Below are positions 32,523 to 39,594 of a stretch of DNA of 64,000 bases, piece by piece. The translations under genes and the position numbers were made by a program. Position 1 is the first letter of the stretch. Each line of letters opens with the position of its first letter. The stretch is from Singulisphaera acidiphila DSM 18658 (GTDB lineage: Bacteria > Planctomycetota > Planctomycetia > Isosphaerales > Isosphaeraceae), in NCBI RefSeq assembly GCF_000242455.2, contig NC_019892.1, positions 4,278,001-4,342,000 of the forward strand, given 5' to 3'. Below the pieces are notes generated by a model. That model worked only from the letters and a program-made list of their open reading frames with translations. It made no database searches and was not told the origin of the DNA.

Positions 32523-35500
32523 TCAGGGTATCGCCAGCGCCTTGGAGACGGCATCCTTGATCTGGTCCCCTCGCAAATTCATGGCGATCACCTTGCCATC
32601 GGGCCCGATCAACCAGATCGACGGGATCCCTTCCACACCATACTCCGCCGGAAGCGTGGCCTCCGACCAGGCGCCGAGGAATCCCTGGCCCCAGGGCAAT
32701 CCTTGCTTGGCGACGTACTCCCGCGGCTCGTCTTTTGATGCGTCCAGGCTCAGGCCGATCATCGCGAACCGCTCATCCTTGCCGAACGCCTCGAAAGTCG
32801 CCTTCAGATGCGGCGTCTCGGCAAGACAAGGAGCGCACCAGGTCGCCCAGAAGTCGAGCAGGACGTACTTGCCCCGATAGTCGGCCAGGGCAACGGTCTT
32901 ACCGTTGAGAGCGGGAACCTGAAAGGCTGGCGCAAGGTCGCCCACGCGCTTGTTCAGATTCAGAGGGATCTCACCCAGGTCGAGCGGTTCATCACTTCGC
33001 CCACCCTGTAGTTCGGGCACAACGAACTTCCGAGTAGCCATGCCCACAATCTTGGCGGCGGCAGACCGATCGTTGCCCGAGGGGGGCTCGTACACCTGGA
33101 TCGACAGCCGATACGGGGCAGAGGGCACGTCGTCCACGTGGAACGAGCCATCGGGACCGATCCGGAGCGGGAAGCGGTGGAAGGCCCGCGAATACGCCTT
33201 GCTCTCCTCTGACTCCCACCACCAGCGCGACTGCTCTTTGGCGTTCAGGCCCTTGGGCGGCGTGGGACACTCCAGCGCCGTCTCGAACTGAAAGGAACCG
33301 TACGACCAATCCACCTGTCGGTCGAATCCCTTGGGGATGACGATCCGCCCGACGACGGGTTGCCCCTTCCCTCCGAGGGCCACGCTTCGCGTCTCACCAG
33401 ACCGAACCTCAACCGTGGCGCTCTGGCCCGACGCCGTGGTCAAGCCTCTGGGCTCATGAAAAACGGGAGCAACCAGATAGAGGCCGGGGGGAACACGATC
33501 CAAGGCGAACTGCCCCTGGTCGTCGGCCAAGTCGTGGAACAGGTAGTACAGTTCCGTCCCCGGTCCGAAGGTCGGTTTCAGATCCCGCCCGATGGCCGGG
33601 CGTTGGCGATTCGCTTGGATCGCTTGACGCCCTCCCGGCATGGAGCCGATCCGGTAGGTCCCCTGGATGCGGCCCCAAGGACGAACGGTAACAACGGGAT
33701 CGGCGGCCAGGTCCTGCGATGACAGTTCGCCAAAACCACGGTCGTGGAAGACGGCAATGGAGTAGTCCTCACTCTGGGCAGGGAATGAGAAGCGGCCATC
33801 GGGGCCGGTCTCCACCCATGGGTTTCGATCCCGCTGAGTGATCCGGCCATTGTTGATCGTCGGGGACAGTCCAGGCGTCACCAAGATAACTTCCGCCCCT
33901 GTAAGAGGGGTCCCATCAGGTAGGCGAACGATTCCGGCAATCGTCGTCCCCTTCTGAAGTTTGAAGTCGTAGACGGTATCTCCTTCGTCAACCTGGAAGG
34001 GTCGCGACACAGCCGGTTGATAACCCTCCGCCTCGATGCGGACGTGAGGCGTCCTCGGGTCATCGAGACTGATCTCGTATCGTCCCCCGGTCGCCGACCT
34101 GAGGTCACCGTACAACCAGTGCGGTGGCTTCGCGCCGTCGATCACAATTCCCGGGACCACCTTGAAAGCCTCGACCGGCTGGCCGGTCCCGGCATCGACG
34201 ACCGAGCCATGGACGTGCAGCATCGGCGACAAGGTGATCTCGTCCCCTTGGGGGGAAGCCGTCATCGGCTTTCTCCGGATGGGCATGTAGTCCCCCATCG
34301 CAATGTCGACGAGAACCTCGTCGGCCGGAGCATCTTCCCAGCGGTAGCGTCCTTTGGCGTCAGAGGTGACCTTGACCTCCAGCGTGCGATAGCCACGCCA
34401 GGTGTCGACGACAACCCGCGCTCCGGCGACCGGCCGCCCTTGCCGATCGACAATTCGCCCGAAGAACGGCTGGGCGGGGGGGAGTTGGAAGTCGACCCGC
34501 TCGCGGCCCTGAACGGCCGGGAGCCGTTTCAGGTCGGGCGCATGCCCCTTGGCCTGAACGGTCAGTACCTGGCTCCCGGGCTTCACATGGAATTGGTAGT
34601 GCCCCTCGGCATCGGTCCGAGTGCTCGGAGGCTGGGGGGCCGAGAATCGATCGAGGCCGAGCTTCACGTGAGCATTGGGGATCGGCCGACCTTCGGCATC
34701 GGTTACCGTCCCGCTCAGCGTCGCTCCGCGTGTCATGACCATGACTGCGGACCGGGCCCTGAGTTGCTCGGGAGACGGCACTGGGGTATCGCCATACGAT
34801 TGGTCGCTGACATACTCGGGGTGGACCAGCCGTGTGGAAACAGAAGAGGTGTCCGCAGGGACCAGGTTACACCGCCAGCGTCCTTGGGCGTCGGTCTTGG
34901 CCGGGAACTCGAAGACGTCGGTGACCGGCACGCCGTCGCCACGCTTAGAGTCGGCCCTGATGTAGACGGTCGCCCCCTCGATCGGCTCGCCCGTCTCGTC
35001 TCGGATCAGGCCGCCGATCGTCGCGGCCGGCTCCATCGGCAACGAGTACGACTCGGGAAGTCGCGTGTTCGCGGAGTCGTTCCACCACGTGATCGACTTG
35101 GGGACAAGCCCGTCCTTCCTTGCCCAGATCGCAACTGACGACACCACCTTGGGGGGAATCCCCTCAATCAGGTATCGACCGGTCTCATCGGTCATCGCCT
35201 TGGTCTGCAAGTCGCCGGCGCGAACTGTGAGTTGGACGCCGGGAATCCCTCGGTCAGTCCCAGGCTCAACGGCGCGAAACTCCATCGACCGCCCCACCAC
35301 CGGGCTCGGCTTGGGAACCACCGTTTTCTCAGGCAAAGGGGTGGCCACGGCCTGGTTTTTTTCGCCGGTCTGCGCCAGGGCGAAGGCGCAAGCCGCCAGC
35401 ATCAGCGTGCCAACGGCCAGCACCGAGGCCGCCGCTTTGAGCTTGGTGAACAGCATCGTCCGGATCGCCCCTTCCGCAAGGGCGAGGATTGAAGCGGAAG

Positions 35501-36206
35501 CAGCCGTCGCGATGTGGGCAGCGACTTCAGCCGTTCGGGTGGCCAACGCCTGGGGGACCGTCGTCGGGAAACCCCAAGGACCAGCCAACCCGACAGAGGG
35601 GGCCAAGCCTCGCGTGGTCAGCCGACGCCGCAACTGCTCCCGCGCCTGGGTCAGGCGGCCCTTGACCATCCCGGTCGTCCACTGGAGTTGCCGTGCGGCC
35701 TCCTCGTACGTCAAACCCTCAAGGTGACAGAGGACGACGGGCCTGCGATACTTCTCTGGGAGCCGGTTGACCTCCTCATCAATCACATCCCGCAGTCCGT
35801 CGACGTCCCGGAAGACGTCGGAGTCAACGGCCTCCGGCCTGGCAACCCGCCCTTCTTTCTCGCGGCGCCGCGCGGGGTCGGACCGGACGCGCGAGGCAAC
35901 CCGGAAGGCAACCCCATAGAGCCAGGGGCTGAGTTGGCCCGGTTCCCGGAGCGTACCGGCCTTGCGCAGCAAGACGAGGAATGTCGCCTGAAAGGCATCC
36001 TCCGCGTCATGCGGGTCGTGCAGCAATCGACGACAGAGTCCCCAGACCATCGGGCCATGCCGGGCAATCAACGCCTCGAAGGCTGCCTCGTCGTGCCGGG
36101 CGGCGAAGTGCTCGAGAAGTTGCTCCTCGGTCATCCCCGAGAGAGTCCCCAAGCTGAAGACGCGCTCGATCTGCCGAAGAACCGCGCCGCGGTGTCCACT
36201 TGCCAT
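32523..36206 (-). CDS. ECF sigma factor fused to membrane, carboxypeptidase-regulatory and TlpA domains
   Basis: A 1227-residue fusion. Residues 26-105 are sigma region 2 (LLEHFAARHDEAAFEALIAR, DAEDAFQATFLVLLRKAG) and 140-195 are region 4 (LPEKYRRPVVLCHLEGLTYE, then MVKGRLTQAREQLRRRL). A transmembrane helix lies at about 256-279 (AAASVLAVGTLMLAACAFAL). About 800 residues of carboxypeptidase-regulatory/Ig-like beta repeats follow (for example GATVYIRADSKRGDG, GRPVAGARVVVDTW). The C-terminus is a TlpA-like thioredoxin with an intact W1123-CAPC redox motif and the cis-Pro loop EGIPSIWLIG. If the helix spans the membrane, the sigma head is cytosolic and the redox tail periplasmic. Planctomycete ECF factors with long C-terminal extensions are known; this exact set is one such arrangement. 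No anti-sigma gene is adjacent. A single long open frame with no frameshift supports a true fusion. Confidence 0.93.
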   Translation of the reverse strand: MASGHRGAVLRQIERVFSLGTLSGMTEEQLLEHFAARHDEAAFEALIARHGPMVWGLCRRLLHDPHDAEDAFQATFLVLLRKAGTLREPGQLSPWLYGVAFRVASRVRSDPARRREKEGRVARPEAVDSDVFRDVDGLRDVIDEEVNRLPEKYRRPVVLCHLEGLTYEEAARQLQWTTGMVKGRLTQAREQLRRRLTTRGLAPSVGLAGPWGFPTTVPQALATRTAEVAAHIATAASASILALAEGAIRTMLFTKLKAAASVLAVGTLMLAACAFALAQTGEKNQAVATPLPEKTVVPKPSPVVGRSMEFRAVEPGTDRGIPGVQLTVRAGDLQTKAMTDETGRYLIEGIPPKVVSSVAIWARKDGLVPKSITWWNDSANTRLPESYSLPMEPAATIGGLIRDETGEPIEGATVYIRADSKRGDGVPVTDVFEFPAKTDAQGRWRCNLVPADTSSVSTRLVHPEYVSDQSYGDTPVPSPEQLRARSAVMVMTRGATLSGTVTDAEGRPIPNAHVKLGLDRFSAPQPPSTRTDAEGHYQFHVKPGSQVLTVQAKGHAPDLKRLPAVQGRERVDFQLPPAQPFFGRIVDRQGRPVAGARVVVDTWRGYRTLEVKVTSDAKGRYRWEDAPADEVLVDIAMGDYMPIRRKPMTASPQGDEITLSPMLHVHGSVVDAGTGQPVEAFKVVPGIVIDGAKPPHWLYGDLRSATGGRYEISLDDPRTPHVRIEAEGYQPAVSRPFQVDEGDTVYDFKLQKGTTIAGIVRLPDGTPLTGAEVILVTPGLSPTINNGRITQRDRNPWVETGPDGRFSFPAQSEDYSIAVFHDRGFGELSSQDLAADPVVTVRPWGRIQGTYRIGSMPGGRQAIQANRQRPAIGRDLKPTFGPGTELYYLFHDLADDQGQFALDRVPPGLYLVAPVFHEPRGLTTASGQSATVEVRSGETRSVALGGKGQPVVGRIVIPKGFDRQVDWSYGSFQFETALECPTPPKGLNAKEQSRWWWESEESKAYSRAFHRFPLRIGPDGSFHVDDVPSAPYRLSIQVYEPPSGNDRSAAAKIVGMATRKFVVPELQGGRSDEPLDLGEIPLNLNKRVGDLAPAFQVPALNGKTVALADYRGKYVLLDFWATWCAPCLAETPHLKATFEAFGKDERFAMIGLSLDASKDEPREYVAKQGLPWGQGFLGAWSEATLPAEYGVEGIPSIWLIGPDGKVIAMNLRGDQIKDAVSKALAIP

Positions 36207-36502: not shown

Positions 36503-36973
36503 TCAAATATAACAGGACGACTTGCCTCGCTTTTCGAGGTAGCGTTGATGATACTCTTCGGCCCGATAGAACGTGGAAGCCGGGGTAACCTCGGTCACGA
36601 CCGGACGGCGGAAGCGGCCGCTCTCGCGGAGTCGCTCTCGGGATGCCAGTGCGGCCTTTTTCTGTTCTTCATCGTGGTAGAAGACGGCGGAGCGATACTG
36701 GGTGCCGACATCGGGTCCTTGGCGGTTGAGAGTCGTCGGGTCGTGGATTTTCCAGAAGAGGTCGAGGAGTTGGTCGTATGAGACCTTGAGCGGGTCGTAA
36801 CTCACCTCGACCACCTCGGCATGGCCGGTGGTTCCCGTGCAGACATCCTGATAGGTGGGGTTTTCCAAGGTCCCGCCGAGATAGCCGACCGCGGCGTCGA
36901 CCACCCCTTCGACCTGGCGAAAGGCGGTCTCGACTCCCCAGAAGCAGCCCGCCCCGAATGTTGCCTTCTTCAT
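36503..36973 (-). CDS. msrA: peptide-methionine (S)-S-oxide reductase MsrA
   Basis: I start at ATG 36973 ([15 protein letters not shown]), 6 bases after GAGGAG, giving 156 residues. The catalytic motif GCFWG is present, as are [51 protein letters not shown] and [12 protein letters not shown]. The enzyme repairs methionine-S-sulfoxide in proteins. The C-terminus [18 protein letters not shown] ends with a Cys near the tail that could resolve the sulfenic acid. Stand-alone gene. Confidence 0.97.
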
Positions 36974-37074
36974 CGTGGTCTCCTCGTCCCTCAAGCTCAA
37001 ATGCGAGGGGTTGATCGATTGATCCCATCCCTCCGTTGTACGCCCGGTGGGTTGTCTGGGACAATCCCAAGCGA

Positions 37075-39594
37075 TCAGCCGGCCGCTGTGCTCTCGGAAT
37101 TGGCGAGAAGAATCTCAAGATCGTTGGGCGCGATCGGCTTGACCAGGTGATGGTCGATCCCGGCCTCGCGCGATTTGCGGCGATCTTCCTCACGGCCCCA
37201 GCCGCTCATGGCCACCAGGAGGGTCGTCCGGAACCCAGGACGCTCACGCAGCCGCCGGGCCAGCTCATAGCCACTTGGGCCAGGCAGGCCGATGTCGAGC
37301 AGGACGACGTCGGGGTGGAACGAGTCGGCCAGCACTAGCGCGGAGGCCGCGTCGTAGGCCACGGCGACGTCCTGGTTCCAGAGCCTCGATAATAGCGAGG
37401 CCATCGACCGCGCGGAGTCCGTATTGTCGTCGACCACAAGGATGCGCCGCCGAAGCCTCGGACCGGGCGTCGCTCGCGATTTCGCGGCCGGTGGGTGGAA
37501 CGATTCAGGCAGAGCGGGGATCCGGACGAGAAACTCACTCCCCAGACCAGGGCCAGCGCTCGAGGCCGTGACGCCCCCACCGTGCATCTCGACCAGGCGG
37601 CGGACCAAGTTCAAGCCAATCCCAAGCCCCCCTTGCGACTGGACGAGAATCCGCTCGGCCTGATTGAAAAGGTCAAAGACATGAGGAAGCATCTCGGCCG
37701 CGATGCCAATGCCCGTGTCAGAGACCCGGACCGTCGCCAGGCCGGCTTCGCGGCCAACCTCCACGTGGATCGTCCCCCCCGGCTTCGTGTACTTGTTGGC
37801 GTTGTCGAGCAGGTTGTCGAAAACCTGTTCGAGCCGGACGGCGTCCCCCTCGACCAGCAGGGGGCCGTCGGGCATCGTCACCGTGAGCACGGGTCCACCT
37901 TGTTCCCAGTGGGAGGTGAGGCTCTCCACAGCCCGTTGCACGGGTTCGGTGAGGTCGACAACCTCCTTGCGCAGCTCGATCTTCCCCCGGGTGATCCGGG
38001 AGACGTCGAGCAGGTCGTCGAGCAGTCGCGCCAGCCGGTCGACTTGCCGCTCCATCATCGCCTGGACCGGTTCGATCGCCGTGCCGGCGACCTCGGGCTT
38101 GAGCGTATGAAGTGCGTTGCGAAGCGGCGCCAGGGGGTTGCGAAGCTCGTGGGCGAGCATGGCGAGAAACTCGTCCTTGCGGCGTTCCGCCTCCTTGAGC
38201 GCATCTTCGGCCAACCGCCGCTCGGTCACATCCTGCCCCGCGCCGACGAAACGCACCACACGTTCGTGCGTTTCGTCCCAGATCGGCCGGCTGCTGTAGC
38301 GGATCCAACGGACCGTTCCATCCTGGGTCACGTTGCGGATCTCTTGCACCTCGGATTGCCCAGCCACCAGCCTTCGATGACTCTCCAAAACCAGGGCCCG
38401 ATCGTCGGCGTGTACGAAGTCGGCCCATCCTCGGGCGTTCATCTCTTCGAGCGTTGTCCCGAGGATCCGGAAATACCCCGGACTCACGGCCTCGGCCGTA
38501 AGAGAACCGTCCAGGCCGATTCCCACGGTGTAAGTGAAGCCGGCCGTCAGGTCAGAGATCAGGCGAAGCTGTTCCTCGCTGGCTCGAAGCTCCTCCTCAG
38601 TCCGCTTACGGGCCGTGATGTCATGGGTATGAACGATGAGGCCGAACCGGGAAGGCTGGACATGGGCGGCATGCCAGGCATCCCGTTCCGGGAAAAAGAG
38701 TTCGAAGTCGACGGCCTGGCCGGTTTCCTTGACCTCTTGAAACTTGCGATCAAAGATCGAGCCAACGACCTCGGAAAAGACGTCACAAGCCAGTTGCCCC
38801 ATCAGTTCCTCGCGAGTTCGCCCCAAAAGGCGCTCGGCCTCTCGGTTGAGCGCGACGAACCGCCACTGCTCATCCAAAAGACAGAATGGGCCGGCGATCA
38901 CCTCGAGAATCTCCGATTCCGCCACAACGGCGGCCGACAACGGGAGACATTGACTCGGTTTCGCATATTTTGAGGCAAGATCCTGCTCGATGAGCTGAGC
39001 GAGGTAGGCAGTCAGGATCAGTCGGTCGGGCGTGCCGTCCTCGGCACACGTCGTGAGGCCGATCGCACCGATGAGCGGGCCGTCGGGAGTGTGGAGCGGC
39101 GCACCGGTCCAGGTGCAGTCGTCGAGGGGATGGGTGAGGTGGTCCGGTCCCACGACAGCCACCGGTCGGTCCTCGGCCAAAGCGGTGCCGGCCCCGTTCC
39201 TCCCTTTCGATGCTTCAGACCAGTCTGAACCGGGGAGGAGCCCCAACTTCGCCATCTTGGACGGGTCGTTGCCGACCGCGTGCAAGACAATGCCTTCGTG
39301 GTCGATCAGGTAGACGAGATGGGCGATGTGGCCAAGCGCCCGGTCGGCCCATGCAATGATGGGGCGGGCCGCCTCCAAGAACGCGCGGTTCTTGTCGAGG
39401 CGTTCGTGAAGGTCGGCGGAATCGAGGAGGGGCTTCCCGGGCGGCTTGTCCGAACCACAGACGTCCTCCTCAACCTCGACCTGAACACCCCGCCAGGATT
39501 CGAGGAAAACCTGACCCAGGCGACTATCGACGGGAAGCCCGTCGATAAATTGCCTCCAGCCAGTCTGCTGCCTCGGATCCATCTGATTTCGCAT
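37075..39594 (-). CDS. hybrid sensor histidine kinase GAF-PAS-PAS-HisKA-HATPase-receiver
   Basis: An 839-residue cytosolic hybrid kinase. Residues about 55-215 form a GAF-like domain resembling the sensor of AcoR/DhaR-type regulators ([20 protein letters not shown], then [20 protein letters not shown]). Two PAS domains follow (about 225-335 and 350-470; [22 protein letters not shown]). HisKA has the phospho-His in [20 protein letters not shown]. The ATPase boxes are [32 protein letters not shown] and [20 protein letters not shown]. The C-terminal receiver (about 715-830) has [17 protein letters not shown] and VKPI. No transmembrane helix, so the signal is likely a small intracellular molecule bound by GAF or PAS. 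No output regulator is adjacent. Confidence 0.94.

Follow-up and report, generated by a model that had tools for sequence, protein, structure and literature searches.

An ECF57-like sigma factor of Singulisphaera acidiphila with a predicted membrane helix and an exported module shared with BlaR1-type proteins

The window analysed here, a 64,000-nucleotide stretch of DNA from Singulisphaera acidiphila DSM 18658, holds a single open reading frame (32523..36206, minus strand) that joins an ECF sigma factor, a predicted membrane helix, long carboxypeptidase-regulatory repeats and a TlpA/ResA-type thioredoxin domain. The most interesting aspect of this protein is that its exported module is traded with the BlaR1/BlaI system, such that related modules are found under either a sigma head or an M56 (BlaR1) head. 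We lean slightly towards reading it as a single-protein receptor from envelope to promoter, in which an ECF57-like sigma factor would be tethered under an exchangeable exported sensor or docking module.

Domain content and conservation

The open reading frame starts with ATG and runs for 1227 codons with no internal stops. Its content was assigned from the ORF listing, Pfam, NCBIfam and a full-length ortholog; NCBIfam gave sigma70-ECF and ResA-like matches in agreement with Pfam. All of the features described below lie on the minus strand. Alignment of paralogs places C58 and C160 in sigma-70 region 2 (residues 46-104; 35895..36071; Pfam Sigma70_r2, E 4.9e-12) and region 4 (residues 141-192; 35631..35786; Pfam Sigma70_r4_2, E 4.6e-13), respectively. 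These are followed by a juxtamembrane region defined by alignment (residues 201-258; 35433..35606), with predicted helices at 219-230 and 238-280, the C-terminal end of which is the motif GxxRxMLFTKLK common to the paralogs. Beyond the predicted membrane helix (residues 259-280; 35367..35432), carboxypeptidase-regulatory-like beta repeats occupy residues ~316-1080 (32967..35261; Pfam CarboxypepD_reg, E 4.9e-56, six stretches). This region has about six repeats over ~765 residues, close to the 800 or so given by the initial annotation. The TlpA/ResA-type domain comes last (residues 1088-1208; 32583..32945; Pfam AhpC-TSA, 8.3e-17) and includes the active-site motif C1124-A-P-C1127 (WCAPC; 32826..32837), which was read from the sequence and varies across homologs. 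The initial annotation had described one polypeptide made up of these four parts with an intact CAPC-bearing TlpA domain. The uninterrupted reading frame and the profile matches confirm the first point, and the two cysteines, the modelled fold and the Foldseek and Pfam matches confirm the second.

The ortholog in Singulisphaera sp. GP187 is 81% identical across residues 1 to 1227. In wider searches, one of them made at class level, full sigma-helix-repeats-TlpA proteins were found in Planctomycetales bacterium 71-10 (G053; L132/L103), in Aquisphaera insulae (L140) and in several MAGs, as well as in genomes G005, G017, G024, G043, G046 and G057 and, beyond the family, in G035 and G076. Because the full-length fusion is kept in the congener and recurs in several other genera, a fusion by chance is ruled out. 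Some sigma-headed homologs stop short of TlpA. There are also sigma-TlpA fusions without detected carboxypeptidase-regulatory repeats (L153, L164 and, in the same genome, L057), which suggests more than one joining event between sigma and TlpA. A protein of 1711 aa (L128; G043:C1075) has a sigma head and two repeat modules in one frame, with an internal TlpA.

We modelled both ends of the protein with AlphaFold2. The model of residues 1-310, built on 33 homologs (mean pLDDT 80), has helices across sigma2 and sigma4 and an unbroken helix at 238-280, and Foldseek matched it to the structures of SigW, AlgU and SigE. The C-terminal TlpA model (mean pLDDT 90) matched Bacteroides TlpA-like proteins and ResA (3fw2, 3fkf, 4grf and ResA 1su9). 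Between the two Singulisphaera orthologs, dN/dS is 0.08 for the sigma part, 0.27 for the repeats and 0.19 for the TlpA part. Given the great expansion of the paralogs and the enzyme fold of the TlpA part itself, it could be argued that the head is inactive as a sigma factor and is merely the cytosolic portion of a structural protein or enzyme in the envelope. However, regions 2 and 4 give good Pfam matches, they are the most conserved part of the protein and under strong purifying selection, and the structural matches are to sigma factors. We therefore regard a head that is not a sigma factor as highly improbable.

Predicted membrane topology

The hydrophobic segment AASVLAVGTLMLAACAFAL starts at residue 259 and has a mean hydropathy of 2.18 over 19 residues. 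Three lysine or arginine residues are found in the 15 residues on its N side versus one in the 15 residues on its C side. From these data the helix at 259-280 is predicted to span the membrane with its N-terminal side in and its C-terminal side out. A cytosolic sigma factor, one helix and an exported C-terminal part, as initially annotated, is thus the prediction favoured by charge, hydropathy and AlphaFold2.

The Singulisphaera genome (9.76 Mb, with a chromosome of 9,629,675 bp), which is congeneric with strain GP187, has ~38 paralogous sigma heads that can be aligned over the sigma part, the juxtamembrane region and the helix, and C58 and C160 are invariant in the alignment (38 of 38). In 35 of 37 paralogs tested, a helix with a hydropathy of at least 1.6 lies at about the same position, and lysine and arginine around the helices in this set number 93 on the N side versus 55 on the C side. 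The bodies past the helix vary. CarboxypepD_reg occurs in about nine, and bodies seen singly are Big_5, DUF1559, Poly_export/SLBB, trypsin-like, HlyD, PD40 (L074), M16 peptidase (HMVEH), TlpA (L057) and di-haem oxidoreductase. Maturation of cytochrome c, with its CXXCH haem sites, requires export. Since it does, and since the bodies are mostly of exported type, the C-out topology of this class of paralogs gains support.

Among the paralogs, L081:226-2988 (G000:C1 about 3110525-3113287) carries two CXXCH motifs in a di-haem oxidoreductase/cytochrome c part behind its sigma head, and so joins a sigma factor to a cytochrome predicted to be periplasmic. L060, L073, L063, L080 and L056 have sigma heads on polysaccharide-export/SLBB, HlyD-like, trypsin-like, M16 and DUF1559 parts. 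Two sigma-helix-repeat paralogs (L076/L082; G000:C1 about 5527000-5533500) lie close by each other on the same strand.

The helix might instead be a cleaved internal signal sequence. Signal peptidase would then sever the body in the course of export, leaving sigma and body as separate proteins, and release of the sigma factor (perhaps through cleavage of the stub by a site-2 protease) would signal export and not a ligand. The stretch MLFTKLKAAASVLAVGTLMLAACAFALAQ (252-280) resembles a signal peptide, with a lipobox-like LAAC (LSAC in GP187) and ALA/Q sites, and a Met preceding the helix is common among the paralogs. By contrast, inspection of the sequence showed no well-placed Shine-Dalgarno ahead of Met252, and post-helix [AVLIST]xA[QDE] sites occur in the paralogs of this genome 12 times versus 7.7 expected (sd 2.3), a mild excess, and in other genomes 16 times versus 16.1 expected, which is no excess. 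Because these counts are near expectation, cleavage is not a family trait, and we set aside a cleaved signal peptide as the rule for the family. For the present protein an internal signal peptide is a possible reading of the sequence, but we consider it unlikely that sigma and body are separated in this way.

Exchange of the exported module with BlaR1-type proteins

Many of the best matches to the exported part bear an M56 (BlaR1) head instead of a sigma factor (Pfam Peptidase_M56, 1.5e-25). At L034/L097, a BlaI gene (Pfam Penicillinase_R, 1.1e-28) lies upstream, its end two bases away from the start of the M56 gene. Among the loci examined, a BlaI homolog was upstream in 14 of 16 that are M56-headed versus none of 15 that are sigma-headed. 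Adjacency of blaI is not universal for M56-headed loci, since none was found next to L044. The M56 proteins with blaI upstream at L034/L097, L104, L107, L047, L039 and other loci have CarboxypepD_reg repeats and TlpA, not a penicillin-binding domain, as their extracytoplasmic part.

We built a tree of 41 modules (23 sigma-headed and 18 M56-headed), and it requires five head changes. The tree rebuilt without the TlpA part again requires five (5-5 across bootstraps), of which at least four are forced by well-supported branches. None of the bootstrap trees of the modules has a single head origin. The head changes on both trees indicate that the modules moved several times between two unrelated output heads.

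Head swapping demonstrates modularity, not sensing itself. In BlaR1-type proteins, the sensor sits in the extracytoplasmic part. Because these proteins hold their sensor in the same position, an exchangeable sensor is the simplest reading of the module, and the exported repeat and TlpA module is probably an interchangeable sensor. The proposal in the initial annotation that the protein senses the state of the envelope thus gains from the occurrence of the same exported module on BlaR1-type receptors, but CAPC redox sensing as its main job is not supported. No description of module exchange with BlaR1/BlaI was found in the full-text literature searched, a scope that excludes the primary ECF classification and the Planctomycetes ECF papers, and we provisionally regard the exchange as previously undescribed.

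Redox sensing and the TlpA domain

A thioredoxin motif that ends a regulator is by itself no evidence of redox sensing. Were the protein a direct redox sensor, oxidation or reduction of the periplasmic CAPC would be relayed to the sigma factor. The present protein and 10 others with a sigma head have an intact CAPC/CGPC motif and thioredoxin fold, the TlpA part is constrained between the Singulisphaera orthologs, and msrA adjoins the gene in both Singulisphaera genomes, all of which would fit such a sensor. However, the GP187 ortholog has an in-frame TAG and TGA within TlpA (L031:4680-5190) and ends at about residue 1090. This loss looks recent, since the surrounding sequence is still constrained (dN/dS 0.19). 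We also considered whether the TGA encodes selenocysteine and rejected this, as the residue lost to the TGA is the Trp of DFWAT and no Cys, and the TAG is 24 codons earlier.

Loss of the cysteines or of the domain is widespread. In sigma-headed L032 and L130 the Cys motif is replaced (by YHGPT and PANDQS, respectively) with the domain kept. The 23 sigma-headed modules comprise 11 with CxxC (10 besides the present protein), 2 that are Cys-less and 10 in which TlpA was undetected, this last count including the GP187 ortholog and L137, possibly a broken reading frame. The 18 M56-headed modules comprise 6 with CxxC, 7 that are Cys-less and 5 that lack the domain, so that 7 of 13 M56-headed TlpA domains are without CxxC. 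On the module tree, the Cys/domain state changes 12 times and presence of the domain changes 8 times. Together, the stops in GP187, the Cys-less versions, the domain losses and the many state changes indicate that CAPC sensing cannot be the general mechanism, which counts against redox sensing as the main job of the protein. CAPC-based sensing may operate in the present copy, since its domain is intact and under purifying selection. As an account of what the protein does, direct redox sensing appears quite unlikely to us.

Five Cys-less TlpA domains (L037, L047, L109, L112 and L113) form a subfamily with a conserved LLDFGxxWDxQS-like stretch where FWATWCxPC stands elsewhere. The thioredoxin fold is probably reused for binding in the subfamily.

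Upstream of the gene in the window are msrA (36503-37000) and a PAS/histidine-kinase/receiver gene (37075-39594), both on the minus strand and in identical order in GP187. A redox operon with msrA and the PAS histidine kinase was set aside, and the neighbourhood was not used as evidence, because the pair is upstream in both Singulisphaera genomes but in none of the other genera we looked at, where msrA was not found adjoining the gene.

Comparison with known systems

The representative of ECF57, a group of the Planctomycetes, is WP_015250107.1 from Singulisphaera acidiphila, and the published traits of the group are a Cys in both sigma2 and sigma4, a long C-terminal extension, a prevalence of WD40-like repeats and protein interaction (PMC8999054). 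The present protein is like ECF57 in having regions 2 and 4 only, a Cys in each (C58 and C160), a long C-terminal extension and a Singulisphaera host. Unlike the WD40-like extensions of that description, its extension consists of a helix, exported repeats and TlpA, and Pfam gave no WD40/PD40 match in the 1227-aa protein. Judging by the published description, in which the WD40 trait is given as a prevalence and is not strictly defining, we therefore call the sigma head ECF57-like rather than ECF57.

A sigma factor, helix and periplasmic part in one chain are also found in IutY of Pseudomonas putida (ECF243), where proteolytic activation is shown, and in SCO4117 of Streptomyces coelicolor (ECF52), where it is supported (PMC8999054); IutY is fused to an anti-sigma domain, and SCO4117 is from a group that has a zinc-finger anti-sigma segment. 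The present protein shares this order, with its periplasmic part predicted, but its exported part is unrelated, and Pfam gave no match to a FecR-type or zinc-finger anti-sigma segment in the 1227 residues. The only cysteines in the protein are at 58, 160, 273, 446, 980, 1124 and 1127, a spacing that leaves the sigma factor with no zinc-site cluster nearby.

The likeness to BlaR1/MecR1-BlaI is in the exported repeat and TlpA module, which is the extracytoplasmic part of related planctomycete M56 proteins beside blaI. Unlike these systems, the present protein has a sigma head with no M56 match in Pfam, and its locus has msrA and a histidine kinase as neighbours and no BlaI. It resembles the TlpA/ResA/DsbE oxidoreductases in its thioredoxin fold, WCxPC, IP (cis-Pro region) motif and predicted periplasmic location; it differs in that the domain ends a signalling fusion and in that the Cys or the entire domain is missing in many homologs. 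An ECF57-like sigma factor with a C-terminal extension is of a kind already known, and the sigma-TlpA fusion is provisionally regarded as new.

Proposed mechanism

ECF sigma factors normally learn the state of the envelope through separate anti-sigma proteins. The single reading frame, its domains and their recurrence, the swapping of heads, the position of blaI beside the M56 versions and the loss of cysteines are direct observations, whereas sensing, tethering in vivo, release of sigma and a regulon are inferred for the 1227-aa protein. In the receptor that we favour, the ECF57-like sigma factor would be kept at the cytoplasmic face of the inner membrane by the one predicted helix, and the exported repeat and TlpA part would serve as a module for sensing or docking, exchangeable between signalling heads. 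The trigger at the module could be a ligand, a partner or a damage event. The output could then be an IutY-like stepwise proteolysis that liberates the sigma head, or relief of a tethered sigma factor from an inhibited conformation. TlpA would be an accessory and dispensable end domain that in some copies could have a redox or binding role.

If sensor and sigma factor are one chain, any exported domain could be wired straight to promoter choice in a planctomycete. A broader idea, which we offer tentatively as possible rather than probable, is that each genome of these planctomycetes encodes dozens of transmembrane initiation factors made of one protein, the sigma factor itself being the receptor, with periplasmic sensors traded with BlaR1-type proteases. 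If true, one sensor would be wired to either promoter activation or repressor destruction. Because the module also occurs on BlaR1-type proteases, there is a way into the function of the many uncharacterised sigma extensions of planctomycetes, as one could look for its ligand in either system.

We also looked at the region upstream of the gene. No upstream motif common to the paralogs was found, with dyad and k-mer tests at the shuffled level. An autoregulated promoter was rejected, as a candidate seen at three close paralogs did not hold as a motif across the genome; the word GCAGTA recurs at a few close paralogs, and the combined pattern has only five sites genome-wide. A role in a defence system was likewise dropped, there being no PADLOC match. 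A block upstream of the start codon is conserved with GP187.
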